The translations under genes and the position numbers were made by a program. From a virus: a stretch of DNA of 46,826 nt. Positions 9,040 through 46,826 of the stretch are shown piece by piece. Under the pieces are notes generated by a model. That model searched no databases and was not told the origin of the DNA. It was given only the letters and a program-made list of their open reading frames with translations. Location of the stretch: the IMG/VR virus record IMGVR_UViG_3300037155_000153, positions 1-46,826 of that record. One strand, written 5' to 3'. The stretch's first letter is position 1. Every line of letters starts with the position of its first letter.

Positions 9040-9390
9040 ATGGAAAAAATATATAAAATTACCCACTTTGATTTATTCTTCGATTGTAAGATTAAAATTG
9101 ACGAGGATAAAGCAAAAGAACCAATTAAAGAAATGGTTGAGTTCTGGGGTGGTTGGGAAAGGAAATTAGAGTCAAATGAAGGAAACTATACTCTGACCTT
9201 TCTTAAAATGCTATCCATGAAGATTATACTTCTTGGTCTATATCAGAACTTAAATTTGTTTGGAATAAAAGAAGAGTTCAAAGGTCTTGAAGGGTGGGCT
9301 CCAATGGATGGATCTCAAGGAATTACCATACTAGAAATTGATGAAGCTATTATTGATTATGATAATCTTCATATAGAGAAATTATCCTAA
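9040..9390 (+). CDS. Hypothetical early protein
   Basis: A 116-residue protein with a good ribosome-binding site (GGAGTGCC before ATG). Mixed alpha/beta in appearance (KEMVEFWGGWERKLESNEGN). The same GGAGTGCC leader precedes the gene at 15457 and, slightly altered, that at 11897. Not recognised. Confidence 0.6.
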   Translation: MEKIYKITHFDLFFDCKIKIDEDKAKEPIKEMVEFWGGWERKLESNEGNYTLTFLKMLSMKIILLGLYQNLNLFGIKEEFKGLEGWAPMDGSQGITILEIDEAIIDYDNLHIEKLS

Positions 9391-9950
9391 TGGGAGAGAT
9401 AACGAAGAAACAGATACGGACGATTAAGACGCTGAAGAGCAGGATGAATCTGAGTGATGATAATTATAAATCAATACTGGCGGGGTTTGGAGTGGAGTCA
9501 TGCACAGCGTTGGGAAGTTTCCAGGCAACGGGTTTGATTTCGAAATTGAGCAAGCTGGTACCGGCGGTTAAGAAGAGTCCTAAGAAGTATTATGGAACGG
9601 GGGAACGCGGAGAGCAGCATCATTTGACCCAGTTACAGGCGGAAAGAATTGAGGTATTAGAGAAAATGCTGAACTGGGAGAGAAGTTCTACTGTTACTTT
9701 TATTATTAAACAGGTTGGGGCTGTTAAGTGCGTATCGATGCTGATGAACTATGAAGCGGTGAAAGTGATTACGGGGATGCAGAGAGTGCTGGCGTTTGAT
9801 ATGGCGAAATCTGCTAAAGGAAATACAGGATCTTATTGGAATGAAAGGGTAAATCAAAAAGAGTTCTTTGAGACAATTAACAATTCTACAAACAATGAGT
9901 TAAAAGAAGCTAATGAAAAAAGATATAATAACACTGCCGAACGGGGTTGA
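9390..9950 (+). CDS. gemA: GemA-like protein (Mu gp16, DUF1018)
   Basis: A 186-residue protein. The opening ITKKQIRTIKTLKSRMNLSD, then DNYKSILAGFGVESCTALG, matches the GemA/DUF1018 pattern (I-IA-K-L-LDDD-Y---L--VTG--S---L). In Mu, GemA modulates host gene expression and DNA supercoiling early in infection. Its start overlaps the previous stop (TAATG) and its 3' end overlaps the small gene at 9913. Location just ahead of the transposase agrees with other Mu-like phages. Confidence 0.8.
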   Translation: MGEITKKQIRTIKTLKSRMNLSDDNYKSILAGFGVESCTALGSFQATGLISKLSKLVPAVKKSPKKYYGTGERGEQHHLTQLQAERIEVLEKMLNWERSSTVTFIIKQVGAVKCVSMLMNYEAVKVITGMQRVLAFDMAKSAKGNTGSYWNERVNQKEFFETINNSTNNELKEANEKRYNNTAERG

Positions 9951-10143: not shown

Positions 10144-11742
10144 ATGAATATACAAGAAATAAAGAACGAATTGAGTGCCGCTCCGAAAGGGGCAAAGGAC
10201 AATATCGTAACCCGGTATGCTGCATTATATGGAGTTTCAACGGATACTATTTACAGGAAAATCAGGAAGGTTTACGGACCAGCTAAAAAAGTAGTTGGTG
10301 TGAAGAAAATTCCTGCTGAACTGATTGATATGGTTGGGAAACTTAAACTTGAAAGCATCGCAATGGGTAACTCGGAACGGGAATTAGCTACGGAGGAATG
10401 CGTTCAGATCCTGAAGGACTCTGATGTGCCAGGAGCTGACCGGCTTACTATATCTACTGTGAATAACAGGCTCCGGGATGCAGGGTTCAGGGCTATGGAA
10501 AGAATTGTAAGGGTGGAAGCTGCTTATCCAAATCAGATGCACCAGCTTGATTTTTCCAGGAGTAAATATTTCCAGGTGAAAAGTTTTGATGTTAAGAAGG
10601 AAGATTATCTTCTGGTAGTCTCCGGGCGGGTACTGGATTATAAGGAGGACGATCATAAACTGCGGACATGGCTTTGCGGTATTCAGGATTCGTATAGCAG
10701 GATTGCCATTACCAGGGGCTTCGTGGCGGGCGGTGAGAGCGTGCTGGCAGGTGTGGAGTTTACGAGCTGGGTATATGGACGCGAACGCGATGAGAACAGT
10801 CTTCATTTCCTGCCCAAAATATTAAAAATTGATAACGGCGCGCTGGGTAAAAGTAAATCATTTGTGGATTTATTATTCCAGTTACAAATTGAAAAGGAAC
10901 TTGTTAAGCCATATAAGAAGCATGGTATCCAGAAACAGGAGAGCGTCTGGAAGGCACTTTGGAAAAAGTTTGAACTTCCACTTGCAATGAGGCTTAAAGC
11001 AGGATCTAAAATTTATTTATCTGAATATAATGATCTGATGTTTGATTTCCAGTTAAGATGGTGCGAAAGAGAGCATCCAATTAAATCAGGGACAAAAACC
11101 CACGTATATCTATCCGGTTTGCAGATGCGGGAACAGAGGGAGATTACTGTTGATCTTAAGTTTGTAATTGCTACTCCTTATAAGAGACATATTGATCAGT
11201 CCTGCTGTGTTTCTATCAATAAACAGAAGTATGAATGTCCATCAAAATATATTGACAAATGGTGTAATGTGCTGATCAATGCGAATGGCGATGCTATTGG
11301 TGAACTAATAGATGAATATTCAAAACCATTTCCATTAAAAGCAGTGCGTGGGTATGTGGAGGTTGGAGATTTTGAACATAGAGATCATCAGTCGTACAGG
11401 CAGGGATTGGAAGAGCAGATGCGCGGCCAAGTTAAAAGTGAAAAGGGAAAAACTAAAAGGGAAGAAAACAAGGAAAGCGGCGGAGTGAAGTATCTGGAGC
11501 CGCGGATTGTGGGAGCTGATCCGGAGACTAAGTTTAACCAGGCGTTTGAGGATGAGGATTATGTCTTCGCTAATGTTTACGATGCAAAAAAGTATATCGT
11601 TGAGTTGATTTATCAGAACTGCAGGACTGAGACTTTTGAGGACTATTCGGAGGTGTTTGAATTGGTCCTTGGTAAGAGTTTGAAGAAAAAAGAGATTGAC
11701 AGTATCTGGGGAGAAATAAAGAGGAAGGTAATGGCGTTATGA
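10144..11742 (+). CDS. Mu-type DDE transposase (subunit A)
   Basis: A 532-residue transposase. The N-terminus (about 20-130) has helix-turn-helix segments for end binding (ALYGVSTDTIYRKIRK; STVNNRLRDAGF). The RNase H-like core carries D136 (HQLDFS), D230 (KIDNGALGKS) and E266 (IQKQESVW), so D and E are separated by 35 residues. A beta-barrel-like region follows (to about 400), then a charged C-terminal tail ending in a helical domain expected to contact subunit B. It catalyses integration and replicative transposition. Shorter than MuA (663 residues), mainly at the N-terminus. Confidence 0.9.
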   Translation: MNIQEIKNELSAAPKGAKDNIVTRYAALYGVSTDTIYRKIRKVYGPAKKVVGVKKIPAELIDMVGKLKLESIAMGNSERELATEECVQILKDSDVPGADRLTISTVNNRLRDAGFRAMERIVRVEAAYPNQMHQLDFSRSKYFQVKSFDVKKEDYLLVVSGRVLDYKEDDHKLRTWLCGIQDSYSRIAITRGFVAGGESVLAGVEFTSWVYGRERDENSLHFLPKILKIDNGALGKSKSFVDLLFQLQIEKELVKPYKKHGIQKQESVWKALWKKFELPLAMRLKAGSKIYLSEYNDLMFDFQLRWCEREHPIKSGTKTHVYLSGLQMREQREITVDLKFVIATPYKRHIDQSCCVSINKQKYECPSKYIDKWCNVLINANGDAIGELIDEYSKPFPLKAVRGYVEVGDFEHRDHQSYRQGLEEQMRGQVKSEKGKTKREENKESGGVKYLEPRIVGADPETKFNQAFEDEDYVFANVYDAKKYIVELIYQNCRTETFEDYSEVFELVLGKSLKKKEIDSIWGEIKRKVMAL

Positions 11743-11882: not shown

Positions 11883-11896
11883 ATGTGAGGTGCCAA

Positions 11897-13366: not shown

Positions 13367-13390
13367 TACAACAATTGAAGGACTAAAATT

Positions 13391-14347
13391 ATGTATAAAG
13401 AGATTGATCCAAGGTTAACCCGGCATTTCGGGTTAGAGAGACAGGGGAAGTTCTTTTCGAAAACATGCACAAGTTTCTGTGAGGATATATCGGAAGGGTT
13501 TCTTCATCAGAAGATGGTGATAGTGGCTGGTCCGGTAGGGACAATGAAATCGAATCTGTTTGAAGTTGCATCATCGCATCAAAAAGATATATGCGAGTTT
13601 GTGTTTGTGACTAATCCTTTCAAGGAGAAAGTGAATATTGCCACTATTATAAATGCAATGATCTATTCATTATCAGATGAGAGCCCGCGCAGGGATCTGG
13701 AAGCACGGACAATTCAACTGCGCAGGATATTGGGGGAAATAGTTATCAATCAGAATAAGAATGTGGTAGTTGTTATCGAAGAGGCTCACAGGCTTCATAA
13801 TTCGATATTCAGGGCGATCAAAGAACTGAGGGAAATGACTTATAAGGGGAATAAGAATCTATTCTCTATAGTGCTGATTGGACATCCACAACTGCTATCA
13901 ACTTTGGAGGGGAAGAAAGAAGCTTACTGGAGATCTGAGATAATAGAGCTGAATGAACGCAATGGATGGATGACTTACCAAGAGCGGTTATCTTATGTGA
14001 AACAGGTATTTGGGAATGCAATAACCCCTGATGCTGCTAAAACAATTGCATCACTTTGCAAAGTACCTCTTCAGATAGTGGACTTTGTTGAGAAGAAAAT
14101 GAAGGAAGCCCGGATGGTTGGGAAAAAACAGATTGACAGTGAAGTTGTAAAACCTACTCCAAGAGAGCTGAAGGAAGCGTACGATGTTTCTATTAGGGAT
14201 ATAGCGAAGGAAAGCGGTCTGGGTGTTGCAACAGTGCAGGCATCAATGACCAATCCGAATTATAAATATGCGGATGAAGTGAGTAAAGCAATTGAGAGAG
14301 TAGCGGCAAAGAAAGTTTCTGAAAATCAAGTTAGGAAATCCGCATAA
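13391..14347 (+). CDS. MuB-like AAA ATPase (transposition target selection)
   Basis: A 318-residue protein with Walker A GPVGTMKS (47-54), Walker B VVVVIEE (125-131) followed by AHRL, and a sensor-like LIGHP. The C-terminus (about 250-318) carries a helix-turn-helix (VSIRDIAKESGLGVATVQAS). MuB forms ATP-dependent filaments on DNA, selects targets and activates the transposase. Here the HTH lies after the ATPase rather than before it, as in Mu. It could instead be read as a generic TniB-like ATPase, but the neighbourhood supports MuB. Confidence 0.85.
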   Translation: MYKEIDPRLTRHFGLERQGKFFSKTCTSFCEDISEGFLHQKMVIVAGPVGTMKSNLFEVASSHQKDICEFVFVTNPFKEKVNIATIINAMIYSLSDESPRRDLEARTIQLRRILGEIVINQNKNVVVVIEEAHRLHNSIFRAIKELREMTYKGNKNLFSIVLIGHPQLLSTLEGKKEAYWRSEIIELNERNGWMTYQERLSYVKQVFGNAITPDAAKTIASLCKVPLQIVDFVEKKMKEARMVGKKQIDSEVVKPTPRELKEAYDVSIRDIAKESGLGVATVQASMTNPNYKYADEVSKAIERVAAKKVSENQVRKSA

Positions 14348-15439: not shown

Positions 15440-15456
15440 AAATTGAGGAGTGCCAA

Positions 15457-16043: not shown

Positions 16044-16405
16044 TTGATAGGCCAGAAGGGATTATTAAAACGATGCCAGCGGTTTGGGTTAATGAACGTG
16101 GCGGATCAATTAAAGAAATTGAAAAATTTTGGACACGTGAAAGGCCTGATGATTATTACTGCATGTTTAATTTATCTGGACAGCCCAAATATGATGTGCT
16201 TTATTTCTATCTTCTTTTCTCCGGGGCCGTAAGATTGAGGGCCAATATAATCGGTTATGAAGGGGGCAAAGATTTATTATGCTGGGACGGGAAATATCAT
16301 CATGGTAAATGCTGGGTGCAAATTGCAGCACCTTTTACAATGGCTGACGAGCCTGTTGAAATGAAGGGATTTCAGGGATTTAGATATACGGAGAAGTTAT
16401 TCTGA
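16040..16405 (+). CDS. Hypothetical protein
   Basis: A 121-residue alpha/beta protein rich in aromatic residues (FWTRERPDDYYCMFNLSGQP; CWDGKYHHGKCWVQIAAPF). It overlaps its upstream neighbour by 4 nt and the methyltransferase-like gene by 1 nt (TGATG). Not recognised. Confidence 0.55.
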   Translation: MIDRPEGIIKTMPAVWVNERGGSIKEIEKFWTRERPDDYYCMFNLSGQPKYDVLYFYLLFSGAVRLRANIIGYEGGKDLLCWDGKYHHGKCWVQIAAPFTMADEPVEMKGFQGFRYTEKLF

Positions 16406-16947
16406 TGTTTAGAATGGAAATGGATACAAACTTTCAGACTCCTTATAATATTTGTCAGTTTATGGCATCTATTATCCCGGAGGGCGTAAAGACCATACTT
16501 GAGCCAACAGCGGGGATCGGGAATCTTGTTGCTGCAGTAATGGAGAGGTTACCTGGGGTGGCTATTACAGCTCCTGAAAATTTCTTCTTGCTTGATAAAA
16601 AAGCAAGATACGATTTGGTTATTGCCAATCCACCCTTTACTTCTAAAAGTGCAGATATAACGAACGCCCCCCCCGATGCTATAAAAATGGGTATGCGGTT
16701 GGGTTATTATATCCTGACGGAGTTGATGAAAATGTCAGATGAAATAATAATACTTATGCCTTGGTTTACTATTTCTGATTCGGATATCAGGCTGAAGGAA
16801 ATATTAAAATATGGGTTGGTATCTATTACTCCGCTTCCGAGAAAAACTTTCAGGTATGCAAGGATTCAAACTATGGTTATGCACTTAAAGAAGGGATATA
16901 AGGGACCGAGGATATTTAATCCAATTTTTCACGAGGAGATTATATGA
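16405..16947 (+). CDS. N6-adenine DNA methyltransferase-like protein
   Basis: A 180-residue protein with the two key motifs of amino-methyltransferases: the SAM-binding loop LEPTAGIGN (32-40) and catalytic NPPF (75-78). The N-terminal FQTPYNICQFMASIIPE is typical of type I/IIG M-subunit cores. It lacks a visible target-recognition domain and is shorter than solitary Dam-like enzymes. It may modify phage DNA against host restriction; sequence specificity unknown. About 90 bp separate it from the diversified gene. Confidence 0.75.
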   Translation: MFRMEMDTNFQTPYNICQFMASIIPEGVKTILEPTAGIGNLVAAVMERLPGVAITAPENFFLLDKKARYDLVIANPPFTSKSADITNAPPDAIKMGMRLGYYILTELMKMSDEIIILMPWFTISDSDIRLKEILKYGLVSITPLPRKTFRYARIQTMVMHLKKGYKGPRIFNPIFHEEII

Positions 16948-17035
16948 GGCGAATAATAGTATTCAGAGGTTATAAAAAGTAATAGCAAATAAGTTCTATA
17001 TATAAATTAATTAATAATAAATAAGGAAAATTAAA

Positions 17036-18145
17036 ATGAGTGCTGGGAAAAAGGAAAAACTTTGCGATACAAAAAACAGTCAGCTCAATGGACATGAGTT
17101 GCCGAATAACATTAAACCGTTCACAAACCTCAAGGATAATTATAATATCTTTGATAAATTCGGGTACTGTCATGAAATGGTTGAGTTACTTCCATTTAAT
17201 TGGGATGCCGTGAAGGGCTTTGATTCAGAGACAATTCACCCAGCTTTCTTGGTTGATGGGAAAGTAAGGCGAATATTCATTGGCAAATATCAATGCTCAA
17301 TTCTTGACGGAAAATATATCACTAAGAAAAATGGCATGGTGGCTCATTCAATTAACTTCGATAATTCTAACCTGGCATGTAATAATCTTAACAACGAAAC
17401 CTCAATCAATGGGTTCCATTTAGTAACAAATACTGAATGGGCGGCCACATCTATAATATCTCACAAAATATTAAATGGAGAAAGGGTACAGGGCAATAAC
17501 AGATTTGGCAGGGACTTTGCATCGGATAAAATACTAGGAGTTCCTGAACCAGGGCACGAAAATAGTTTTAAGAATCATGGCTTTCCATGTCGGTGGCTTG
17601 CAGGATCGGGTGGTGTTACAACATCCCACAATGGAAGCGAATCAGGAATCTATGATTTGAATGGCAATGTTTGGGAGTGGGTTAAGGGGTTACGCTTGAA
17701 TAATGGTGAGATAAATATTGTCTCCGACGCCGCAATATCCGGTCTTGATGGATCTGCAAGCAGTTCTGAATGGAGGGCAATTCTTGAAGATGGTTCATTG
17801 GTTAATCCCGGGACTAAGGGAACTTTGAAGTTTAATAATAAAGGGGAAATATCAAAGACGACAACACCTTACTGGGGCGGTCATGCTTTCAAGAATACTA
17901 CTTGTTCTAAAAGTGTTTCTCCGGATTGCACTGGGGTTGAACTACTAAAAAAACTGGCATTGTTTCCTTTTATAACAGATCTGCATGATGACTATTTTTG
18001 GTTTGATACCAGCGGTGAGAGCATTCCGCTCCGCGGCGGCGGTTGGGGCACTGGTTCCGTTGCCGGGCTCCGGGCCTTGAACCTCTCCTATGGACGAGGC
18101 GCTGCGGGCTACAGCATCGGTTTCCGTGTCGCTTTTGTTTTTTAA
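17036..18145 (+). CDS. DGR target 1: FGE/C-type-lectin-fold variable protein
   Basis: A 369-residue protein without a signal peptide. After a polar N-terminus it holds one formylglycine-generating-enzyme-like (C-type lectin fold) domain (about 40-369): IFIGKYQ, GFHLVTNTEWAA, RWLAGSGGV, YDLNGNVWEWVKGLRLNNGE and the closing RGGGWG...GLRALNL...IGFRVAF. It is collinear with the last 335 residues of the tail fibre at 37525. Residues 331-369 are encoded by variable repeat 1, which differs from the template only at adenines. The lectin-fold scaffold tolerates such variation at its ligand face. A stand-alone early-operon target is unusual: it may be a second virion adhesin or act in the host cell. 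Confidence 0.85.
   Translation: MSAGKKEKLCDTKNSQLNGHELPNNIKPFTNLKDNYNIFDKFGYCHEMVELLPFNWDAVKGFDSETIHPAFLVDGKVRRIFIGKYQCSILDGKYITKKNGMVAHSINFDNSNLACNNLNNETSINGFHLVTNTEWAATSIISHKILNGERVQGNNRFGRDFASDKILGVPEPGHENSFKNHGFPCRWLAGSGGVTTSHNGSESGIYDLNGNVWEWVKGLRLNNGEINIVSDAAISGLDGSASSSEWRAILEDGSLVNPGTKGTLKFNNKGEISKTTTPYWGGHAFKNTTCSKSVSPDCTGVELLKKLALFPFITDLHDDYFWFDTSGESIPLRGGGWGTGSVAGLRALNLSYGRGAAGYSIGFRVAFVF
18031..18142 (+). repeat. DGR variable repeat VR1
   Basis: Collinear with the template repeat at 40939-41050. In the first 103 bp (18031-18133) there are 17 differences, every one at a template adenine (for example AAT to GGT, AAC to TCC, AAT to GCT). The block ATCGGTTTCCGTGTCGCT is unchanged. After it VR1 has TTTGTTT where the template has CTTATTT. 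It encodes the C-terminal 38 residues of target 1, ending at the stop. Confidence 0.95.
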
Positions 18146-18194
18146 TTTGTTTTCTGTTTTCTGGAAATCTGTTTTAGGAATATGAAGTATAGAT

Positions 18195-18707
18195 ATGGAA
18201 TATAAAAAGGCTAGGGAAATTGCGGTTAGGTATTGGGAGAAGTTCAGGCCACTTTGCGACAGAGTCAAAGTGGCCGGATCTGTCCGGAGGGAGAAGGCTG
18301 AGTGCGGAGATATTGAGTTGGTGTGTATCCCGCTTGATGCGGAGTTTCAGGATGGTCTGTTTGACAAGAAGATCGTAAGGGACCCAGAGTTTGTGAAGTA
18401 TGTGAATTCTTTTCCCAGAGTAAAAGGGAATGGCGAAGGGAAATACACTCAGTTATTATTACCCGAGGGAATTAAGTTGGATCTGTTCATGTGCAATGAA
18501 GATAACTTCGGGCTGATGTGGATGATTAGAACAGGGAGTGAATATTTCAGTAAACGGATGGTGACGGAAATTAAGACCAGGGGGTTTTATTGTTATGACG
18601 GGTATCTGTGGAATGACAATCATGAGAAGATATCTGTTAAGGAGGAGATGGATTTTTTTACAATTACCAGAACAAAATTTATTAAACCAACTATGAGGCA
18701 ATTTTAA
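18195..18707 (+). CDS. Pol X-type nucleotidyltransferase
   Basis: A 170-residue protein with the Pol beta palm signature GSVRR (28-32), followed by GDIELV (D39, E41) and KLDLF (D96). These are three carboxylates in the family positions, with Glu in place of the usual second Asp. The C-terminal SEYFSKRMVTEIKTRGFYCY, then DGYLWNDNHEKISVKEEMDF, resembles the thumb of Pol X enzymes. It lacks helix-hairpin-helix and lyase domains, so it is a minimal NTase. It might add nucleotides to DNA ends or gaps, or modify a protein or RNA; not decided by sequence. Next to an HD gene. Confidence 0.7.
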   Translation: MEYKKAREIAVRYWEKFRPLCDRVKVAGSVRREKAECGDIELVCIPLDAEFQDGLFDKKIVRDPEFVKYVNSFPRVKGNGEGKYTQLLLPEGIKLDLFMCNEDNFGLMWMIRTGSEYFSKRMVTEIKTRGFYCYDGYLWNDNHEKISVKEEMDFFTITRTKFIKPTMRQF

Positions 18708-19991: not shown

Positions 19992-20018
19992 GTTTTAAGA
20001 AAATTGATATATAAAGAA

Positions 20019-20046
20019 AAGCCCCCTCAGTGAGGGGCTTTTTTGT
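20019..20046. terminator. Bidirectional intrinsic terminator
   Basis: An AAGCCCC(C)TCA / TGAGGGGCTT stem with almost no loop, followed by TTTTTT on the plus strand and preceded by AAAA, which is a T run on the minus strand. It lies exactly between the convergent early operon and packaging operon and can end both transcripts. Confidence 0.85.
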
Positions 20047-20495: not shown

Positions 20496-20941
20496 TAATC
20501 TAATCCTTCATTATTATCTAAATAGGTTGGCTTTGGATTGAACCACTTATTAAAAAGGCGCGGTTTGCTTCTAATGGTAACGCGATTTATGCCGGATTTG
20601 GAAACTGCATCGACGGGGATTTCTCCTTTTTTATATGAGAGCCAAAGTTTGTACACATCTTTGTAGTCCTTCACGATCTGCGGGTCCGTCGAGAATTCAG
20701 TATCGCCTTGTTTGAGTCCGAAGCAAAGATATTTGATTACGCTGAATAATTGCTCGCGGAGAGGATCTGTCATTGTGGTTTCATCTACCTGAATAAACCC
20801 GAGCATAATGTTCTGTGCACGATCGCGCTGCTCTTCAAGGATGGTGACGCTGGGTTCTTTGGTATCGGGATCTTCGCAGTATTGGGACCAGAGGGGGAAG
20901 TATTTCTGCATATAGTCAGTTGCGATTAAAATCATACCCAT
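20495..20941 (-). CDS. Mu gp36-like head-tail connector (DUF1320-like)
   Basis: A 148-residue helical protein: MILIATDYMQKYFPLWSQYC and a long middle helix, then RAQNIMLGFIQVDETTMTDP and LFSVIKYLCFGLKQGD. This resembles the gp36/DUF1320 connectors that bind under the portal. Placed between the gpG-like and gp37-like genes as in Mu-type genomes, though on the minus strand. Confidence 0.6.
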   Translation of the reverse strand: MGMILIATDYMQKYFPLWSQYCEDPDTKEPSVTILEEQRDRAQNIMLGFIQVDETTMTDPLREQLFSVIKYLCFGLKQGDTEFSTDPQIVKDYKDVYKLWLSYKKGEIPVDAVSKSGINRVTIRSKPRLFNKWFNPKPTYLDNNEGLD

Positions 20942-20950
20942 AATAAACTC

Positions 20951-21406
20951 CTAAATACTTTTAATAATTGCTTTGATGGTTTCCCAACCGAGGCGGCTGA
21001 GTTTTTGTTTCTCTGAGTCCTGGGATATTCCCCACCATTTGCGGATTACTTTGGACTTCCCTGCTCCAAGTGTTTGGTGATAACCGCCGATGATTTCTTT
21101 TTCAGTATCGTTAATAAGGACGCGGACTGAGCTGAAATCATTGGCAATGACATGATCTATTTTAGTGAGCATTCCCTGCGTGTGATCGAAATAGAGATCT
21201 ACCGGCCAGGTGTTGAGATGAGCGTGTTCTCGTTTCTTTTTGTAGGGATCAGAATATTTAACAAACATTTGCCCATAGAGATCGAATCCTTTTTGTGTAC
21301 GCTGCTTGATAATGAACTCAACTCCGAGGGCTAATTTGTTCAGGAGAGTCTGGCTCTTAAGAGCAGAGAGTAATGCTTGAATCCGGGAGTTTTCTATTGA
21401 TGCCAA
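20951..21406 (-). CDS. Mu gpG-like virion morphogenesis protein
   Basis: A 151-residue basic protein starting at TTG 21406. It matches the phage virion morphogenesis (gpG, tail completion) family: IKQRTQKGFDLYGQMFVKYS, then DPYKKKR, DHTQGMLTKIDHVI, GGYHQTLGAGKSKVIRKWWG and a C-terminal helix. These proteins take part in head completion and tail joining. It is followed by the gp36- and gp37-like genes. Confidence 0.7.
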   Translation of the reverse strand: MASIENSRIQALLSALKSQTLLNKLALGVEFIIKQRTQKGFDLYGQMFVKYSDPYKKKREHAHLNTWPVDLYFDHTQGMLTKIDHVIANDFSSVRVLINDTEKEIIGGYHQTLGAGKSKVIRKWWGISQDSEKQKLSRLGWETIKAIIKSI

Positions 21407-21567
21407 TTAGACACCTCATGAGTTTGGTGTTTGAGGGTATCCGGATATAATGCGCTATAGCGTTCGCAATGCGTTCGTAAGACTCGTGAAAGGAGGCAAG
21501 ACCGGGGGGAGGATATTTTATACCTCTTTACGGTTTCGAGGGCTTTATGGATGATTTCAGAAATCAA
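21394..21567 (-). CDS. Possible 57-residue protein between portal and gpG genes
   Basis: The gap between portal and gpG is fully open in one minus frame. It starts at a TTG overlapping the portal stop (TTGA) and stops inside the next gene. The product (MISEIIHKALETVKRYKISS, then many basic residues) has no known match. In Mu this is where the MuF gene (gp30) sits, so it could be a remnant or an unrelated small gene. Start codon and coding character are weak. Confidence 0.35.
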   Translation of the reverse strand: MISEIIHKALETVKRYKISSPRSCLLSRVLRTHCERYSALYPDTLKHQTHEVSNWHQ

Positions 21568-22715
21568 AAAGTATTGTCTCCCGGGAACATCGGCTGTTTC
21601 TTTAGAGGGATATCTTTATTAAGTATCAGGAGACCGAATTGATCAAAGAAAGCCGGATCTATTTCCGCACCTGCATTCAAAGCAATTGTTACTGCAGCAA
21701 GTTTATCTTTGGAATCAGCGGCATCGGATTTATCCATTTTGAATTTTGGATATTTAGCGATGTTGAGATAATTACGATCCACAAGCATTTTAATAAGGGC
21801 CTGGATTTCTTCCTCAATGAAATCAATATCATCAATAGCGACATGCTGCATAACACGGAAAGCATCGAGGTTGCCGCCGATCTGCAGGCCGGCTTTTTGT
21901 CCGCCGGATGCTTTCTCATGACCAAGGAGGGCTAAAGAGATACCGGACTTAACATCTTCTTTATAATCTTTATGATCACCGGTGGATCTGTGAGACTCGG
22001 TGATGTTTACTTTTGTACCGGCTGGAACAATACCGCGCGCACTGGCACCAAGATTTGTAATTCCATCTTCAAGGTTTTTCTTTTCAGGATCGCTTAAGCC
22101 GATGGGATATTCAGCCCAAAGGTATGGTTCGCCGAACATTTCAAGGAAGCTGCTCCAGGACTCTTCGCCGAATTCTTTGCGGATGTATGCTTTTAGGATA
22201 GTAAGCATTATCATTTTTTTGCCATAGCGGACTACGAGAGCAGAGTCCGGTTCGATGGGGGTCATGTAACTACCCATATCGATCTTGATCTGATTGTCAA
22301 ATGGATCAATGCGAAAATAGATCTGATCCCATTTCTTGAAACCTGTAATTACCTGGGAGCCGCCGCTTACTTTCCAATCCAGATCGATAACGGAGTACTG
22401 TTTCATTTTTGCATCGACAATATTTTCCTGAAGGTCACGGATGCGGATGCTTTCAAAAACATCTTTTACAAATGCAGCTACTTCAATGTCTTTAGAGTTA
22501 TCGCTGGCGGGTGCAATATCCCATGAGCGCTTGTAACCGGCGTGACGGGCAGTAAGGCAGCCGGCAATAAATTCATCAATTTCAGCACGGTCGATGAGGG
22601 CAAAAACATCGCGGAGGATTCCGAGTTGGTAGTTACTGTAAGCACGTTTGTAAAAACTGGGAGTGAATGAAACTCCCATATTCCAATAGTTTAAGCGTTT
22701 ATTTACCTGGATCAT
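21564..22715 (-). CDS. Portal protein, Mu gp29-like (DUF935)
   Basis: A 383-residue protein with the DUF935 portal pattern: FALIDRAEIDEFIAGCLTAR, RSWDIAPAS, a FKKWDQIYFRIDPF wing, LWAEYPIGLSDPEKK, NITESHRSTGDHKDY and LGHEKASGGQKAG. It forms the dodecameric DNA gate of the head. Downstream of TerL by 49 bp. Somewhat shorter than Mu gp29 (512 residues), mostly at the C-terminus. Confidence 0.8.
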   Translation of the reverse strand: MIQVNKRLNYWNMGVSFTPSFYKRAYSNYQLGILRDVFALIDRAEIDEFIAGCLTARHAGYKRSWDIAPASDNSKDIEVAAFVKDVFESIRIRDLQENIVDAKMKQYSVIDLDWKVSGGSQVITGFKKWDQIYFRIDPFDNQIKIDMGSYMTPIEPDSALVVRYGKKMIMLTILKAYIRKEFGEESWSSFLEMFGEPYLWAEYPIGLSDPEKKNLEDGITNLGASARGIVPAGTKVNITESHRSTGDHKDYKEDVKSGISLALLGHEKASGGQKAGLQIGGNLDAFRVMQHVAIDDIDFIEEEIQALIKMLVDRNYLNIAKYPKFKMDKSDAADSKDKLAAVTIALNAGAEIDPAFFDQFGLLILNKDIPLKKQPMFPGDNTF

Positions 22716-22764: not shown

Positions 22765-24288
22765 CTAACGACCATGAAGCCAGGAGTCTTCTTTGTTGGC
22801 TTTGCTAAAGCGCCTATCCTTCAAACTTTTAATCTGGCCAATGTTTATGTATGCCGGAAGCATTATGTATGCTGTTGCTTCTGCATCAAGGCAATCAAGC
22901 TTTTCTGTTGCTTTACCAAAACTGATATATTGGTTTTGATAAACTTTATAATCATCACTTTTTATGATGGCTTCGTTAATGATAATTTCACCAGTCTGAT
23001 GTGGATGAACTAAATTCATGATTCTACCCATTTTATCCGATCCATAGTTTTCCGTCTTTAAGGATTTTGAAGAATATGGGACAATAGGAAGAACGTGTTT
23101 AGTAGATGCGCACCAATCTTTGTAATAAGGGGCTGCAATAGTCCATTGCGCAAAATCATTTTCCCAGAGTACAACGCGGAACCCGGGGAACGAGGATCTT
23201 GCTTCATGAAGCCAATCAAACAAAAGATCAAATGATTCTTTGCGGCCGTAAACATCGAGTATCATATCCTTGCCTTTATCAGATCTACCCATGATAACGG
23301 CTCCTTTGAGACATGCTTCAATGCTTTTACCAAAGGATGGATCGACAGCTGCGATAGTCACCATAATATTTATCAGATTCATGTTAACCGGCCGGAGCCA
23401 TTTGGGGTCGAATATGTCTCCAAGAAGTACAGGCTGATTCATCCAATCGCCCAGCCATACATCAAGAGGGATGGCTTTCTTTTTTAACCTAAGCGCCTCT
23501 GTAGTCCAACGGGACCCGGGCCAGTTGGTTTGTTCCTGTTCGTTCCACGCCGGGAGATTAAAATTCTTTTCAGGATTGGCTTCTGTAAAACGTGAACCAG
23601 GAGAGCTGGGAGTAATGAAGTTATAAAACCATAAAAGCAATCCACCCGGTTCAAGTTGGCCGGAACATTCAGAGGTAACAAAGTTGTAAACTTTTTCATT
23701 GTCGAGTTCTGATCCGACAGTCTGGCGGTTAAATAAATCGTCGCAAACTATCAACTCGAAACGTTTCATATTATCATCAACCCAGTTACGGAGTCCTTCG
23801 CGCATTCCAAGGGAGACGAAGGATTTATCATTGATTATATAAAATCCTTTCTTCATCTGCTGGAAGTTGATGGAATAGTCATATACCAGTTTTTTATTAC
23901 GGCGAATTTTTTTAGCAATGAGGGCTGTGCGCTCTTTGGAATCTTTTTCATTGCGGAGTGCAAGACCAATGAGACCGGTACCACCGAGACAAATTTTCTT
24001 TACAATTTTAGCGAAGATGCCGAATGTGGTTTTACCAAAGAGCCGGCAGCCGGAGACTCCATATTCGCCTTCAGTTAAATTCTTGATATGATGGTGAATA
24101 GGATTCCAGGGTTCATTAAATATTTCAGGGAAGTATTCATGACAAAATTCGAAATCATCATTATCGCAACGTGCACGGCGTTCTTTGCGCTTTTCTTCAG
24201 TGAGATCGGTTTCTTTGGCCTGAGTGGTAACACGCTTTAAGAAACTCTCAAATGCCTCGTCTTCTTCACGGAAATAGTTTGCGGCCAT
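22765..24288 (-). CDS. Terminase large subunit (Mu gp28-like)
   Basis: A 507-residue protein. The ATPase domain has a Walker A-like SGCRLFGKTT (79-88) and LIVCDDLFN as the Walker B-like strand. The nuclease domain begins at IAAVDPSFGKS with its first metal-binding Asp; further candidates are in MILDVYGRKESFDLL and the C-terminal DCLDAEAT. It translocates DNA into the head and cuts it; Mu-like enzymes package headful-wise from the left end with attached host DNA. Starts 2 nt after the HTH small-subunit gene. Confidence 0.85.
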   Translation of the reverse strand: MAANYFREEDEAFESFLKRVTTQAKETDLTEEKRKERRARCDNDDFEFCHEYFPEIFNEPWNPIHHHIKNLTEGEYGVSGCRLFGKTTFGIFAKIVKKICLGGTGLIGLALRNEKDSKERTALIAKKIRRNKKLVYDYSINFQQMKKGFYIINDKSFVSLGMREGLRNWVDDNMKRFELIVCDDLFNRQTVGSELDNEKVYNFVTSECSGQLEPGGLLLWFYNFITPSSPGSRFTEANPEKNFNLPAWNEQEQTNWPGSRWTTEALRLKKKAIPLDVWLGDWMNQPVLLGDIFDPKWLRPVNMNLINIMVTIAAVDPSFGKSIEACLKGAVIMGRSDKGKDMILDVYGRKESFDLLFDWLHEARSSFPGFRVVLWENDFAQWTIAAPYYKDWCASTKHVLPIVPYSSKSLKTENYGSDKMGRIMNLVHPHQTGEIIINEAIIKSDDYKVYQNQYISFGKATEKLDCLDAEATAYIMLPAYINIGQIKSLKDRRFSKANKEDSWLHGR

Positions 24289-37046: not shown

Positions 37047-37528
37047 GTATGAGAGGGATACAAACCGCGAAATTAGTATTTGATTTAGGCGGAGATGATG
37101 AACAAACAGTTATGCTTGGATATTATAATGTAGTAAAGAATAAGCCGGAATTGCTTTATTTTGAGCATGAAGGTTCTATTGACGGGGAAAGGGATTCAAG
37201 ATTAAAAGCAGTGCATGTATCATTTGATTTTGATGTAAATCTATGGAAATATGGTACACCAGGCAGTAAATTCAACGAGATAATGGGTTTATTAGGAAAG
37301 AAATTTGTGTTTTGGCTTCATAAGGATGGTCTTCCATTTAAGAAAATTAGTGGGGATAACGCGTTATTTATAATAAAAGAATATGAAGAATATTATAAGA
37401 CTACAACTGATTGGAAGGACGGATTAAAGATAACGATAGAAAGTCAAAATCCTATAGACCCATTACTACCTGATCCGATAGTTGTAGAACCAAGTGAAAT
37501 AATAATGACACCAGGAGTTTATTTATGA
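37043..37528 (+). CDS. Small tail protein
   Basis: A 161-residue beta-rich protein (KLVFDLGGDDEQTVMLGYYN; LYFEHEGSIDGERDSRLKAV). It overlaps both the tail tip gene and the fibre gene by 4 nt, so it is made with them. Possibly links hub and fibre; not recognised. Confidence 0.5.
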   Translation: MSMRGIQTAKLVFDLGGDDEQTVMLGYYNVVKNKPELLYFEHEGSIDGERDSRLKAVHVSFDFDVNLWKYGTPGSKFNEIMGLLGKKFVFWLHKDGLPFKKISGDNALFIIKEYEEYYKTTTDWKDGLKITIESQNPIDPLLPDPIVVEPSEIIMTPGVYL

Positions 37529-40524
37529 GAACCTCAAAGTTTTTAACTATTCTGAAAACAGTAAATAATGTTCCAATAGTGACAGGTGTTTTTGAGATAA
37601 TTCCTTATGGGAATATTTATCCAAGCGGTGCACTGGCTTTAACAAATGAGCATGATGGGATATGGAGCCGGGCCGGCGCTCCTGATGGAGAGTATAGTTT
37701 GTATTATAATGGAGTGGTTTGTCCATCTTATCAGAGATTCTGGGTTGGTGATAATAAAATTAGCCTTGTAGCTGATAATTTCAATGAAGACGGTGCACCA
37801 AAACTGGATTATGCGGCGGGGAAGAATAAGTTTAATAAAGATACCGCCATATCCGGGATGTATATTCCAACTTCTACAGGCATAATAACCGCAGCTTCAA
37901 ATTGCGTAATAAGTGATTTTATTCCTGTTAGCGCGGGGGAAATTTATGTTTTATCCGGTATCCGCGATATTGATTTTTCAACAAACAAATATATAAATTG
38001 GGTGGGATTATATGATGAAAACCGTGATCCTATTACTCCATATTGCATTACATCGGATGAACATTTGCCTTTTACTATTCCTGCTGGGTGCTATTATGTG
38101 GTTATCCAATTATCATATTCTGAGGCATCACCAAACTATAATTTAGTGCAATTAGAAAAAGGTTTGGTTGTTACTGATTTTGAGTCTTATGCGCTGGAAT
38201 CGTTTGCCTCTGGATTCAGGGACAAAATAAATACAATTGAATATGTTTACAAGCCAGGGAAGAATTTAATTACTTCGCAAGGTTTTAACCATAGATATAT
38301 ATTAACTACTGATGGCTCTACAACTACGGGCAGTTCGACAGAACAAATGACATCATTTATTGAGATAGATCCCTTTAAAGTTTATACCTTCCGGGCAAAG
38401 ATTCTTAATATCCCCTATGGGTGGAATTTCTGGGGCGCATATTATGATAAAAATTTCAGTTTAATTACGAAGACCAGTCTTGGACTTGATTCTTATTCAC
38501 AAAAGTTTTTAGTTCCTGCTCCAGGGTTTGAAAATTATTATACTTATAAATTATTCCCCCCCACAAATGCAAAATATTTAAGACTTGTTGTTTGCTTTGA
38601 TGGAACCGGAATTGACCTGACAACCCTTCAATTAGAGGAGGGAGCTTATCCTACGACTTTTGAAAACTATTATTCAACAAGAAATCTGATCAGCGTAAAT
38701 AACGCTGATTACCATGGTGATATTCAAACGAGTCAGTGGGATAAAAAGAAAGCTGTATTTTTGGGCGATTCAATTACATATATGAATGTTTGGCAGCCAA
38801 AAGTTTGCAATGCATTAGGCATAATTTATAATATTCAGGAGCTTTTAACAGGCATTGGAGCGCATAAGCAAACTGCACTGGGCGGTTCTACCATAGCGCC
38901 GATAATAACAGGGGCAACAGGGCAATTGGCAGGAGACAGCATTTACAAAAGATGTGATTCGGTAGTTAGTTATTGTCCTGATTTAATATTTTTATTCGGC
39001 GGTCAAAATGATGTTGGACAGTTTGAAAATGCGCAACAGACTTTAGGCACAAGCGCTGATGCTCCTTATACTGGCGGCGAAGTAACTTACCCGGGTTCAA
39101 GAATAACAACCCCGACTTTCTGCAGTTCATATAAAGGAGTTTTATTAAAATTAATAACTCAAAACCCAAATGCAAAAATATTCGTTTTAACTCCTTATGA
39201 AAGCGGCGGCATTGCAAGAACGGATGGAAGTTTTGGAAACAAAGAAAATTACGTTGAAGCTATAATTGAAATAACAAAACAATATTCCTGCCAGCTGATA
39301 GACCTTTGCCATGAATCCGGGATTACAATAGAGAATAATTCAGTGATGACTATTGATGGGACGCATCCATCGGGCGCGGGAGCTGAAAGAATAGCACAAC
39401 TAATAATTTCTAAAATTGCCGGCTCTGTTTCATCATATAGCAGCCGAATAAATTCTGATATTGGTTCAATGTTTAGCGCGGGTCAACCTGGTGCATACCT
39501 GGGGAATAACAACTGGTTGATCTATGATAACAATAATAACTATCATGAGATGGTGGAGATCCCTGCTTTTAATTGGGACCCGACTAATGGGTTTAGTTCA
39601 ACACAATTACATCCTGTTTTTACAGTTAATGGTGTAAGAAAAAGAATCTTCATAGGCAAATATCAAGCGTCCTATTTGGGTGGACATGCGGTAACGCAGT
39701 TGGATGGGGTTGTAGCACAAACAATTAATTTCGATGATTCAAGTGCGGTTTGTAATAGCCTGAATAATGGGACTACAATTAATGGATTTCACCTTATTAC
39801 CAACGCAGAATGGGCGGCCATTTGTTTGGTATCAAAGAATATAATGGGTGCAACTGAAGTGGCCGGGAACAACAACTTTGGCCGTGACCAGGGCGCTTCA
39901 ACAATTCTGGGGTTAGAGGAACCGGGTGAAACGGGAAACTTTGCCTCAAGCACATCACCGGCTCGCTGGCTGGCCGGAAGTGGCGGAGTTACAACGGCAC
40001 ACGATGGTACAAGTTATGGCATCCGGGACATGAATGGAAATGTCTGGGAATGGGCAAAGGGAATGCGCCTGAACAATGGCGAAATAAACATCATTCCTTT
40101 AAATGATGCGGCTAATCCATCTGCGGATGTTACATCTTCAAGTGTATTATGGAAGGGAATCCTTGAGGATGGCTCTTTAGTTGCACCAGGCACTACCGGG
40201 ACGCTAAAGGTAAACGCGGCGGGACAGATCAGTAAAACAACTACATCCACATCTTCAGCTGAACCTTTTGAGAGTCTCTCCTGTGCTTCAGATGTAAGTG
40301 CGACCAGTGCCGGAGTGGCCCTATTAAAAGCACTTGCTATATACCCATTTGCGTCCGGACTTAATAGTGATTATTTCTGGTTTAACTCCGGGATAGAAGC
40401 TATTCCTGTCCGCGGCGGCACTTGGGGCGATGGTTCCAATGCCGGGCTCCGGGCCCTGGACCTCGGCAATGGCCGTGGCTATGCGAGCTACTACTTCGGT
40501 TTCCGTGTCGCTTTTGTTTATTGA
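37525..40524 (+). CDS. DGR target 2: tail fibre with SGNH hydrolase and variable lectin-fold tip
   Basis: A 999-residue tail fibre. Residues about 95-225 and 245-385 are two similar beta-rich modules, each ending LEKG/LEEG...FE-Y, likely carbohydrate-binding. About 405-635 is an SGNH esterase: GDSIT (block I), GGQNDVG (block III) and DGTHPSG (block V, Asp-His), so it may deacetylate surface glycans. About 665-999 is an FGE-like C-type lectin fold (KRIFIGKYQAS, MNGNVWEWAKGMRLNNGE). Residues 962-999 come from variable repeat 2. The protein probably recognises the host receptor and its tip is diversified by the DGR downstream. Confidence 0.85.
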   Translation: MRTSKFLTILKTVNNVPIVTGVFEIIPYGNIYPSGALALTNEHDGIWSRAGAPDGEYSLYYNGVVCPSYQRFWVGDNKISLVADNFNEDGAPKLDYAAGKNKFNKDTAISGMYIPTSTGIITAASNCVISDFIPVSAGEIYVLSGIRDIDFSTNKYINWVGLYDENRDPITPYCITSDEHLPFTIPAGCYYVVIQLSYSEASPNYNLVQLEKGLVVTDFESYALESFASGFRDKINTIEYVYKPGKNLITSQGFNHRYILTTDGSTTTGSSTEQMTSFIEIDPFKVYTFRAKILNIPYGWNFWGAYYDKNFSLITKTSLGLDSYSQKFLVPAPGFENYYTYKLFPPTNAKYLRLVVCFDGTGIDLTTLQLEEGAYPTTFENYYSTRNLISVNNADYHGDIQTSQWDKKKAVFLGDSITYMNVWQPKVCNALGIIYNIQELLTGIGAHKQTALGGSTIAPIITGATGQLAGDSIYKRCDSVVSYCPDLIFLFGGQNDVGQFENAQQTLGTSADAPYTGGEVTYPGSRITTPTFCSSYKGVLLKLITQNPNAKIFVLTPYESGGIARTDGSFGNKENYVEAIIEITKQYSCQLIDLCHESGITIENNSVMTIDGTHPSGAGAERIAQLIISKIAGSVSSYSSRINSDIGSMFSAGQPGAYLGNNNWLIYDNNNNYHEMVEIPAFNWDPTNGFSSTQLHPVFTVNGVRKRIFIGKYQASYLGGHAVTQLDGVVAQTINFDDSSAVCNSLNNGTTINGFHLITNAEWAAICLVSKNIMGATEVAGNNNFGRDQGASTILGLEEPGETGNFASSTSPARWLAGSGGVTTAHDGTSYGIRDMNGNVWEWAKGMRLNNGEINIIPLNDAANPSADVTSSSVLWKGILEDGSLVAPGTTGTLKVNAAGQISKTTTSTSSAEPFESLSCASDVSATSAGVALLKALAIYPFASGLNSDYFWFNSGIEAIPVRGGTWGDGSNAGLRALDLGNGRGYASYYFGFRVAFVY
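40410..40521 (+). repeat. DGR variable repeat VR2
   Basis: Collinear with the template at 40939-41050. In the first 103 bp (40410-40512) there are 16 differences: 15 at template adenines and one T-to-C (TTG to CTG). As in VR1, the end has TTTGTTT where the template has CTTATTT. It encodes the last residues of the tail fibre, 4 codons before the stop included. Confidence 0.95.
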
Positions 40525-40578
40525 TTTTCTGTCCTTTGTATTCTGGTTCTCTGTTCCTAATTTAATTTGGATGGTTTG

Positions 40579-40908
40579 GTGAATGATCTGTTAATTATTG
40601 AAAAGTGTATTGATTGTTTTAAATATCTGCATAATGCCCTGAACTACTTTCCTAAATCAGAAAAGTTTGTTCTGGCCGCGGATATAAGAAACGAGTTCTT
40701 TGAAATGCTGTCACTCTTTTTGACCGCGAATAAATCACGGGACAAAAAGAAATATTTACATGAGGCTGATATTAAACTTGAACTTTTGAGATTCAAAATC
40801 AGAATAGCAAAAGAGCTTGAGTTGTTAAAGCTAAAGCAATACGAGATTTTATCCAAACAACTCAGTGAGATCGGTAAGATGCTGGGAGGATGGATAAAAA
40901 GTGCATAG
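40579..40908 (+). CDS. avd: DGR accessory protein Avd
   Basis: A 109-residue helical protein from GTG 40579 (TTG 40567 would add four residues). It has the Avd family hallmark PKSEKFVLAADIR at 25-37 and the helical KKKYLHEADIKLELLRFKIR. Avd forms a barrel-shaped pentamer of four-helix bundles that binds template RNA and the reverse transcriptase; it is needed for cDNA synthesis in the Bordetella phage DGR. It lies between the VR2 gene and the TR, the standard order. Confidence 0.85.
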   Translation: MNDLLIIEKCIDCFKYLHNALNYFPKSEKFVLAADIRNEFFEMLSLFLTANKSRDKKKYLHEADIKLELLRFKIRIAKELELLKLKQYEILSKQLSEIGKMLGGWIKSA

Positions 40909-40938
40909 GTTATGTCTGCAACAAGTACGGTTTCCTAT

Positions 40939-41050
40939 CCGCGGCGGCAATTGGAACAATGGTTCCAATGCCGGGCTCCGGGCCTTGAACCTCAACAATG
41001 AACGAGGCAATGCGAACAACAACATCGGTTTCCGTGTCGCTCTTATTTAT
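40939..41050 (+). repeat. DGR template repeat (TR)
   Basis: An adenine-rich repeat with many AAY codons in phase with the targets; read through it would encode RGGNWNNGSNAGLRAL, then NLNNERGNANNNIGFRV. AAY codons allow up to 15 different amino acids without stop codons. VR1 and VR2 both derive from it by changes at adenines. It lies 30 bp after the avd stop and 150 bp before the RT start and would be transcribed into the RNA template. Not thought to be translated. Confidence 0.95.
41024..41050 (+). promoter_or_regulatory. IMH*-like end of the template repeat
   Basis: The end of TR holds the invariant GGTTTCCGTGTCGCT followed by CTTATTTAT. Both VRs have the same 15 bases followed by TTTGTTTWT. 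In known DGRs a small difference of this kind (IMH in VR, IMH* in TR) fixes the direction of information transfer. Assignment is by analogy. Confidence 0.6.
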
Positions 41051-41199
41051 GGCCAGAATTTTAATTTTACGGAATTAAAACAGAGCAATGAACAAAAGGA
41101 GATAATAACCTTGACGATAAATAACCGTCAAAAATATTCTTGTTCTTCCGTGCGGTTAGTAACCGACATACTGGACAATATCGCGCGGGGGACCTTTTA
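41051..41199 (+). other. Spacer between TR and RT, probable template-RNA scaffold
   Basis: 149 bp that could be translated in the TR phase to 41203 but without protein character. In characterised DGRs this spacer is part of the template RNA and binds Avd and RT. It includes a GGGGGA ribosome-binding site (about 41187-41192) for the RT start TTG 41200. Confidence 0.5.
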
Positions 41200-42198
41200 T
41201 TGAAGACATTTAATAATCTATATGAAAGAATATATGACTTTAATAATCTGCATCGGGCCTTTCTGAATGCAAAAAGAAACAAGCGGTTCAAATATGAGGT
41301 TATGGAGTTTGCAAGTAACCTGGAAGAAAATCTTATAACTATACAAAATGAACTGATTTATGAGACTTACAAACCGTCAAGATATAATGAATTTATTATC
41401 AGAGAGCCTAAAGAAAGATTGATTCTGGCTCTTCCATTCAGAGACCGGGTAGTTCATCAGGCAATATGCGCGATTATTGAACCGCTATTTGAAAAGACAT
41501 TTATCAATGATTCTTATGCATGCAGGAAAGGAAAAGGAACAATTGCCGGAGTCAAACGAGTTGAGAAATTTGTAAAGAATGAAATGAGAAATGAAGAAGT
41601 GTTTTGTTTGAAGATGGATATACAAAAATATTTTTACTCGATTGACCATGCAACTATAAAGAAGTTGTTAAGAAGAAAAATAAGATGTAGGAAAACACTA
41701 AATCTATTAAATGTAATTATTGATTCTACTGATGATCCAGGCATTCCCGTTGGGAATCTAACAAGCCAACTATTTGCAAATATTTACCTGAACCAAGTTG
41801 ATCATTTTATTAAAGAAACCTTAAGAATTAAGCATTATGTACGGTACATGGACGACATGATTATTCTAAGTAAAAATAAGAAGCAACTGTGGATCTGGTT
41901 AAGTGAGATTAGAAACTTTCTGAATATAGAATTGAGGTTAACATTAAACAAGAAAACATCTGTTTTCAATATAAAACGCGGAATAGATTTTTTAGGCTAT
42001 CGGCAATTCCCGCAACACAGGATCTTAAGAAAAAGAGTGATGGTAAAGAATTACAGGAAGTTCAAGAAATTTGTTAAAGTAAATATTGGTATGGACAAAA
42101 TGCAGAAATCGCTTGCAAGTCTGAACGGGCTTTGCAAGCATTGCGATTCAGAGAAATTTATGAGAAATATTAAAAATATTATAGGGGATGCGGGATGA
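41200..42198 (+). CDS. DGR reverse transcriptase
   Basis: 332 residues from TTG 41200 (MKTFNNLYERIYDFNNLHRA, the usual DGR-RT opening, with GGGGGA upstream). RT domains in order: ERLILALPFRDRVVHQAIC; YACRKGKGT; CLKMDIQKYFYSIDH (first catalytic Asp); GIPVGNLTSQLFANIYL, with the DGR-type GxxxSQ at 185-190 in place of QGxxxSP; YMDD at 216-219; LTLNKKTSVF; GIDFLGYRQFP. It copies TR RNA with errors at adenines and the cDNA replaces VR. Its stop overlaps the membrane gene downstream (ATGA). Confidence 0.95.
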   Translation: MKTFNNLYERIYDFNNLHRAFLNAKRNKRFKYEVMEFASNLEENLITIQNELIYETYKPSRYNEFIIREPKERLILALPFRDRVVHQAICAIIEPLFEKTFINDSYACRKGKGTIAGVKRVEKFVKNEMRNEEVFCLKMDIQKYFYSIDHATIKKLLRRKIRCRKTLNLLNVIIDSTDDPGIPVGNLTSQLFANIYLNQVDHFIKETLRIKHYVRYMDDMIILSKNKKQLWIWLSEIRNFLNIELRLTLNKKTSVFNIKRGIDFLGYRQFPQHRILRKRVMVKNYRKFKKFVKVNIGMDKMQKSLASLNGLCKHCDSEKFMRNIKNIIGDAG

Positions 42199-43055: not shown

Positions 43056-43223
43056 TGAACTTTTAATTCAACAATAGTTCTATTTTTTGCCACCCGGGGG
43101 ATTCCTCTATTGTTTTGAGTTTTGTTTATTCCCAAAAATCTTTGTATCTCCCTCATATTTTATCTTTTCAATTATATCATATTTACTAAGAGAAAATTAT
43201 TATTTCTTTATGAGAAAAGAATC

Positions 43224-43299
43224 AGTACAAGTACTATATTTTATTGAAAAAGCGTAGTACTTGTACTATATTTTTAGGGATTTGATAGTACTTGTACTA
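43224..43299. promoter_or_regulatory. Three phased AGTACnnGTACT dyads
   Basis: AGTACAAGTACT (43224-43235), AGTACTTGTACT (43256-43267) and AGTACTTGTACT (43287-43298) have centres 32 and 31 bp apart, about three helical turns. Each is flanked by TA or AT extensions. Phased near-palindromes are typical of cooperative dimer binding. The bound protein and regulated gene are unknown. Confidence 0.6.
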
Positions 43300-43326
43300 T
43301 GGAAGGCAAATATTAAATAATCAGAC

Positions 43327-46587: not shown

Positions 46588-46826
46588 TCATTTCAATAAT
46601 ATTAACTTCTTCGCAGCACTATAATTCCCAACCTCCAACCTATACAAATATATTCCACTGGCAAGGTTACTTCCATTAAACTGCACTGAGTAATTACCTG
46701 CGGGTTTGTATTCGTTTACAAGAGTGGCTACTTTACTTCCGATGGAGTTGTAAACAATGAGTTTTACATTCCCGGAATGGGGAAGGGAGTAGTTAATTGT
46801 TGTAGTCGGATTAAAGGGGTTGGGAT
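46588..46826 (-). CDS. C-terminal fragment of a T9SS-sorted protein
   Basis: The last 79 codons of a protein running in from beyond the right edge: NPFNPTTTINYSLPHSGNVK, VYNSIGSKVATLVNEYKPAG, NYSVQFNGSNLASGIYLYRL, EVGNYSAAKKLILLK, then TGA at 46588. It is a T9SS type A sorting domain. Its first 92 nt equal 1-92 of the window in the same phase, so it may be the missing end of the gene at 1-2403 if the molecule is circular, giving about 850 residues. Confidence 0.8.
   Translation of the reverse strand, partial: PNPFNPTTTINYSLPHSGNVKLIVYNSIGSKVATLVNEYKPAGNYSVQFNGSNLASGIYLYRLEVGNYSAAKKLILLK
46735..46826. repeat. 92-bp terminal direct repeat, right copy
   Basis: Identical to 1-92. A similar but diverged stretch also occurs in the T9SS domain of the neighbouring gene (about 44170-44275), showing that this region is a recurrent coding repeat in the genome. 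Confidence 0.95.

Follow-up and report, generated by a model that had tools for sequence, protein, structure and literature searches.

A diversity-generating retroelement with one template and two C-type-lectin targets in a Mu-like prophage, and a phased array behind its target sites

The IMG/VR virus record IMGVR_UViG_3300037155_000153 carries a diversity-generating retroelement (DGR), which we analyzed over the entire record (46,826 nucleotides, 46.8 kb; hereafter the window). All components of the element lie on the plus strand. An avd gene (40567..40908, 113 amino acids), a template repeat (TR, 40932..41050), a structured spacer (41040..41192), and a reverse transcriptase (RT) gene (41200..42198) follow one another, with the TR placed between avd and the RT gene. 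The RT, of 332 amino acids from the TTG codon at 41200, contains the GNLTSQ and YMDD motifs. The local target gene, target 1 (37525..40524), encodes a tail-fibre-like protein of 999 amino acids with a GDSL/SGNH hydrolase domain (residues 412-621; PF13472, 9e-14) and a C-terminal FGE-type C-type-lectin domain (PF03781, 8e-6) that ends in the first variable repeat (VR1, 40403..40521); the protein also matches phrog_5240 (tail fiber, 1e-20) and phrog_2889 (2e-71). The remote target, target 2 (17036..18145), encodes a stand-alone FGE-type C-type-lectin protein of 369 amino acids (phrog_2889, 4e-67) and carries VR2 (18024..18142). Both targets are thus lectin-fold members of phrog_2889 with a VR at their 3' end: VR1 forms the final 119 bases before the stop codon of the 999-residue gene, and VR2 is the same part of the 369-residue gene. 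The original prediction described a complete DGR consisting of Avd, an AAY-rich TR, an RT with these 2 motifs, and 2 variable repeats, and we could locate every one of these parts as well as the structured spacer RNA. The interval it gave, 40410-42198, holds only the local half of the element. The remote VR falls outside it, within the gene at 17036-18145; the first bases of the 2 target genes are 37525 (target 1) and 17036 (target 2).

To quantify the adenine bias, we compared a 101-bp core of the AAY-rich TR (40941-41041, containing 26 adenines) with the corresponding VR cores (18033-18133 and 40412-40512). The VR2 core differs from the TR at 17 positions, all of them template adenines (hypergeometric P = 3.9e-13), and the VR1 core at 16 positions, 15 of which are template adenines (P = 3.7e-10), the sole non-adenine mismatch being T40985>C. 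These are the counts previously given for the 2 copies, except that the upstream copy at 18024-18142, called VR2 here, had been named VR1. Template adenines are replaced by G, T, and C in the VRs, and the variable codons are mostly AAY, from which 15 amino acids are reachable. At their 3' ends, the repeats carry the initiation of mutagenic homing (IMH) sequence or its TR counterpart, IMH* (41027-41050). The IMH-like ends of VR1 (40498..40521, with T40513 and G40516) and VR2 (18119-18142) have T and G where the TR has C and A (41042 and 41045), a difference that is identical in both VRs and is also found in both VRs of the sister DGR described below. No third VR was found in the window, where other stretches match at most 49% of the non-adenine template positions. 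Because the window is the virus record only, further targets may lie elsewhere in the host genome.

The identity of the protein and RNA components was assessed with family models and solved structures. Avd, an accessory protein found in most DGRs, scored 119.7 bits against the NCBIfam model DivGenRetAVD (NF033474, cut-off 80), matched Pfam bAvd (3e-29), and showed a sequence match to the Avd of the Bordetella phage BPP-1 (4dwl/8ub7). The RT matched RVT_1 (2.5e-22), and among solved structures it is closest to the BPP-1 DGR RT (8ub7; 212 bits, 8e-62), whereas the highest-scoring group II intron RT reached 83 bits (2e-22). Judged by these bit scores, an RT lineage outside the DGR clade, which would have spoken against the original prediction, is not indicated. 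The spacer matched the Rfam family RT-14 (61 bits, gathering score 48.1). RT-14 also occurs beside the TR in 7 related DGR loci (L010, L012, L181, L185, L188, L272, and L274), 8 with the window, and because of this adjacency, the sequence comparison identifies RT-14 as a TR-spacer RNA of this DGR group. One could also imagine chance repeats near an unrelated RT, and RVT_1 models of group II intron, retron, and defense RTs do match the enzyme weakly. However, the NCBIfam models of those classes all score far below their curated cut-offs, for which reason we rejected a defense RT or a retron; the BPP-1 RT is ahead by about 130 bits; and Avd, RT-14 RNA, and adenine-biased VRs coexist at the locus, which practically refutes this idea.

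Altogether, we consider it very probable (about 0.93) that this Mu-like prophage carries a complete DGR of the Avd type, which uses one template to diversify 2 C-type-lectin proteins. The anatomy of the element, its adenine specificity at both VRs, and the rewriting of its targets since the split from the sister DGR are observed. The biochemical steps can be drawn by analogy with BPP-1: an RNA comprising avd, TR, and spacer would fold through the RT-14 element, a complex of RT and Avd would copy this RNA and misincorporate opposite template adenines, and the mutated cDNA would replace the 3' end of the target gene by retrohoming. The polarity of homing would be set by the difference between IMH and IMH* (T/G in the VRs versus C/A in the TR). 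Because target 2 belongs to the early/DNA-modification region, at a distance of 23 kb, homing would work in trans across the genome.

This kind of system is already known, and the window adds a well-supported two-target member to it. DGRs in Mu-like Bacteroidota phages have been published with Hankyphage, a Mu-like Bacteroides phage (PMC6199706), and two-target DGRs with Quimbyvirus (PMC8008677), the Bacuni phages (PMC8143477), Lagaffe_CP and others (PMC11792537), and nd4/nd12. The Hankyphage p00 DGR likewise combines an RT, a TR/VR pair, and a DGR target in a transposable Mu-like Bacteroidota phage, but a single VR next to the RT is described there (PMC6199706), whereas the window has 2 targets, one of them 23 kb off. 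Like the window, Quimbyvirus has 2 lectin-fold targets, of which the first follows the tail fibres and the other is distal, amid methyltransferase/nuclease genes; unlike the window, in which the RT occupies a single frame in a Mu-like phage, its RT is split over 3 overlapping frames and it is not reported to be Mu-like (PMC8008677). In the parts of the reports consulted, the Bacuni phages (PMC8143477) and Lagaffe_CP (PMC11792537) also have one TR, one distant target, and one RT-adjacent target; they differ from the window in target families and hosts, and those parts contain no analysis of the early-region position or of a common versus repeated origin. The BPP-1 DGR (PMC3240598, PMC12875486; 8ub7, 4dwl) shares with the window the order Avd-TR-RT, adenine mutagenesis, a VR at the 3' end of a lectin-fold target, and IMH/IMH* polarity. 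BPP-1 has a single target, whose VR is followed by a hairpin at a distance of 4 bp, in contrast to the 2 targets, the lack of a hairpin, and the phased TCTG array of the window. The DGR itself is a well-documented member of its class in a metagenomic Mu-like phage. Of more interest are 2 points considered below, namely that early-region targets have originated repeatedly and that a phased array follows the VRs.

A sister DGR is present in IMG/VR contig 3300037155_000207 (3300037076_000477 is the same phage, with 1 mismatch in 28 kb). At the amino acid level, its Avd is 92%, its RT 93%, its target 1 orthologue 74%, and its target 2 orthologue 67% identical to those of the window, and it has the same two-target layout, with the remote target 23.7 kb upstream of the DGR. 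In place of Mu genes, the sister phage carries ParB-like, replication-initiation, lambda-type terminase, and portal genes, and it otherwise shares with the window only a distant tape-measure similarity and one small-protein similarity. Hence, the DGR and its 2 non-adjacent targets have been retained together across 2 unrelated phage backbones. The flanks of target 2 are 69% identical in DNA sequence between the 2 phages, and those of target 1 gave no alignment. The local target of the sister (L181:4786-4860) is without the tail-fibre part and has an N-terminus resembling a Sec signal, MKNIIKMSLLIILLISGFANAQ, and this protein may be exported rather than built into the tail.

Over a 100-bp core, the TRs of the 2 phages differ at 6 positions, all non-adenine; no template adenine has changed. 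Taken over the 4 VRs, these positions give 24 comparisons, and in 23 of them the VR has the base of its own TR. Repeated copying from the TR explains this tracking and simple descent of the VRs cannot, and because each VR follows its own TR at non-adenine positions, the comparison indicates that both targets have been rewritten since the window and its sister split. The same tracking in both phages supports the earlier description of the element as active or recently active. In the sister, VR differences fall at template adenines in 16/16 and 13/14 cases, so that the scatter over all template bases that would have contradicted that description was not seen in this related genome. The single exception among the 24 cases is VR1 position 40456, which carries the state of the sister TR. 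At this site (40985 in the TR, 40456 in VR1, and 18077 in VR2), the TR and VR2 have T, and VR1, the sister TR, and the sister VRs have C, which provides a relative clock for homing.

Several points weigh against the reading of a DGR that is diversifying both targets today. The change to T at 40985 reached VR2 and not VR1, and VR1 has probably not been rewritten since. The evidence for activity consists of comparative sequence, and activity in the present-day population is presumptive. The AlphaFold model of target 2 has a mean predicted local distance difference test score (pLDDT) of 62 and values below 50 in the VR, for which reason the fold search was done without this model, and the function of target 2 is likewise presumptive. 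Finally, no hairpin was found after VR1 or VR2, and behind each VR of the window and of the sister the folding energy is about 0; a hairpin or cruciform at this place is a non-defining feature, and membership among the DGRs stands. The missing hairpin, the one non-adenine mismatch between VR1 and TR, and the purely comparative nature of the evidence for activity would also suit a recent fossil, that is, a lately active DGR whose lineage no longer rewrites its targets. However, the avd and RT frames are open, the high identity of RT (93%) and Avd (92%) to the sister proteins argues for constraint, the VR2 core is free of non-adenine mismatches, and the VRs follow their own TR. We thus regard a fossil as improbable.

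The 2 targets lie in different surroundings. Target 1, with its GDSL hydrolase domain, stands at the end of the tail module, and its role is presumably in tropism. Target 2 is one of the early genes, 23 kb upstream of the DGR, and stands between an N6-methyltransferase-like gene (16405..16947, plus strand; PF02384, 2e-4, above cut-off) and a polymerase-beta-like nucleotidyltransferase gene (18195..18707, plus strand; PF14791/PF14792, below cut-off). Most of the protein, VR included, aligned with TaqVP, the crystallized variable protein of a Thermus aquaticus DGR (5vf4, 8e-47; PMC6328139); TaqVP differs in serving as target for the DGR of its own prophage. For target 2, we favor a function inside the cell or in phage conflict. 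That it is a second virion adhesin, so that both targets widen tropism, is plausible though not our preferred explanation: its fold and family (phrog_2889) are those of the target 1 lectin domain, and an adhesin has been suggested in print for Lagaffe_CP (PMC11792537). Yet target 2 has no tail-fibre N-terminus, its neighbors are early genes and not those of the structural module, and the early position recurs in other two-target phages (G003, G041, G042, G020, G021, and Lagaffe), with at least 2 origins.

This recurrence was analyzed in a set of 47 virus records, 44 of which contain a DGR-like RT. Beyond the identical pair G001/G003, 5 records have 2 lectin targets (G020, G021, G041, G042, and G046; no RT was found in the G046 record). 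For G041, G042, and G020, comparison with the local TR showed that the remote copy is one of its VRs, changed specifically at adenines, and the same pattern is seen in the remote VRs of 2 public genomes, Faecalibacterium phage Lagaffe (11/11 differences at template adenines) and Dulem virus 37 (11/12). The remote VR of G021 (L277:7650-7716) apparently has an indel relative to the TR and may be a broken copy. The remote gene of G003 lies beside ParB/replication genes. In the other phages, it is found next to an integrase/repressor (G041), inside the Mu early region (G042), or beside recombination/replication genes including Erf (G020, G021, and Lagaffe). A tree of the targets built without the VR unites the remote targets of these other phages in one supported group and places the remote pair of the window and its sister in a second, independent one. 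Because an approximately unbiased (AU) test rejected a single origin of all early-region targets (p = 2e-61), the sequence data point to at least 2 independent origins. A non-tail role for phage DGR diversity thus looks selected rather than accidental, because the two-target DGR has been kept across unrelated phages and early-region targets arose at least 2 times.

Directly behind each target gene, on the plus strand, lies an array of TCTG units spaced 7-9 nt apart, at 40528..40553 after target 1 (one unit degenerate) and at 18147..18171 after target 2, with a period of about 7-8 nt in these 2 copies. The regular expression describing the array has only these 2 matches in the window, after VR1 and VR2. 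The array is also present after the VRs of the sister, in 2 more related DGRs, and in G041, G042, G020, Lagaffe, and Dulem virus 37, where it follows the local as well as the remote VR; in most of these, a hairpin follows the array, with a GRNA loop in G041, G042, and Dulem. A hairpin or cruciform after the VR is a known aid to homing (PMC3240598), and its absence lowers homing in BPP-1, but it is not strictly required, and the choice of the retrohoming site is incompletely understood (PMC12875486). In the window, the (T)CTG array 3' of each VR is probably recognized in place of the usual hairpin.

To see how general the array is, TR/VR pairs were located automatically in 112 loci. Chains of at least 3 CTG units followed the VR in 25 loci and the TR in 2 (Fisher 1.6e-6, uncorrected for kinship). 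The sequence 3' of the VR also showed unit-independent self-similarity that peaked at lags 7, 8, and 9 only. After strict dereplication to 67 loci, self-similarity at lags 7-8 averaged 0.317 behind the VR compared with 0.265 in dinucleotide shuffles (z = 8.6) and 0.270 after the TR, and the signal held in viral (z = 7.3) and genome (z = 4.8) loci. It lies in the first 20-30 bases 3' of the VR. The array was noticed before it was tested, on loci that include those of its discovery; of the subsets, the genome contigs come closest to independent data. We tentatively propose, at slightly less than even odds, that DGR target sites carry an undescribed cis-element of 3-5 short lineage-specific units with a 7-9 nt period, which lies directly 3' of the VR and fills the "flexible" stretch before the hairpin, and which in the group of the window would stand without a hairpin as the main target-recognition signal, permitting homing to targets far from the DGR. 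We found no account of a phased array in the DGR literature examined, which did not cover the survey PMC5758913, so that priority is uncertain.

The array might instead be a by-product of common descent in one DGR clade or of local composition. The TCTG form is indeed concentrated in related DGRs, and after dereplication, CTG chains of at least 3 units are left in 10/83 loci after the VR versus 2/83 after the TR. Nevertheless, the units vary by lineage (TCTG, ACTG, CTTT, and CTTG) at a constant spacing of 7-9 nt, the excess over shuffles survives strict dereplication and is seen in viral and genome loci alike, and Lagaffe gp40 retains the array within its coding sequence, all of which makes a by-product rather unlikely. 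In gp40 (NC_047911.1; L281:31798-33060), the remote VR is internal, with a C-terminal extension behind it, and the retention of the array in frame suggests a role at the DNA level. An RNA-guide function, in which the units would pair with the TR spacer RNA, was rejected: a spacer contains reverse complements of the units from its own locus no more often than other spacers do (p = 0.18), and the Dulem virus 37 spacer lacks CAGT although its units are ACTG. Being present after VRs and not after TRs, the array provides a defined stretch for mutagenesis in the reporter assays already available, and it could aid the detection of DGRs and the design of DGR targets.

The surrounding genes agree with the Mu-like prophage of the original prediction. 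PHROGs and Pfam searches found the hallmarks of Mu-like phages: a GemA-like protein of the Mu early region (9390..9950; PF06252, 4e-7), a Mu-type transposase A (10144..11742; phrog_310, 1e-13), and a MuB-like transposition ATPase (13391..14347; phrog_296, 3e-14; AAA_22, 3e-10) on the plus strand, and a Mu-type portal protein (21564..22715; Portal_Mu, PF06074, 8e-45) on the minus strand, which also encodes the terminase large subunit (22765..24288; phrog_38, 3e-18). Positions 10000-22000 gave zero megablast matches to phage records. Close to the right end of the prophage (43222-43300), the near-palindrome AGTACTTGTACTAT occurs 3 times at a spacing of 31-32 bp. These copies are possible repressor operators or transposase sites; paired phage-end sites were rejected, as there is no comparable cluster at the left end. 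Two neighboring flanking genes have similar ends (44034-44268 and 46590-46824), and the complete one carries a type IX secretion sorting domain (Por_Secre_tail). The presence of this domain in a flanking gene fits the previously suggested Bacteroidota-type host, of the Fibrobacteres-Chlorobi-Bacteroidetes (FCB) group.

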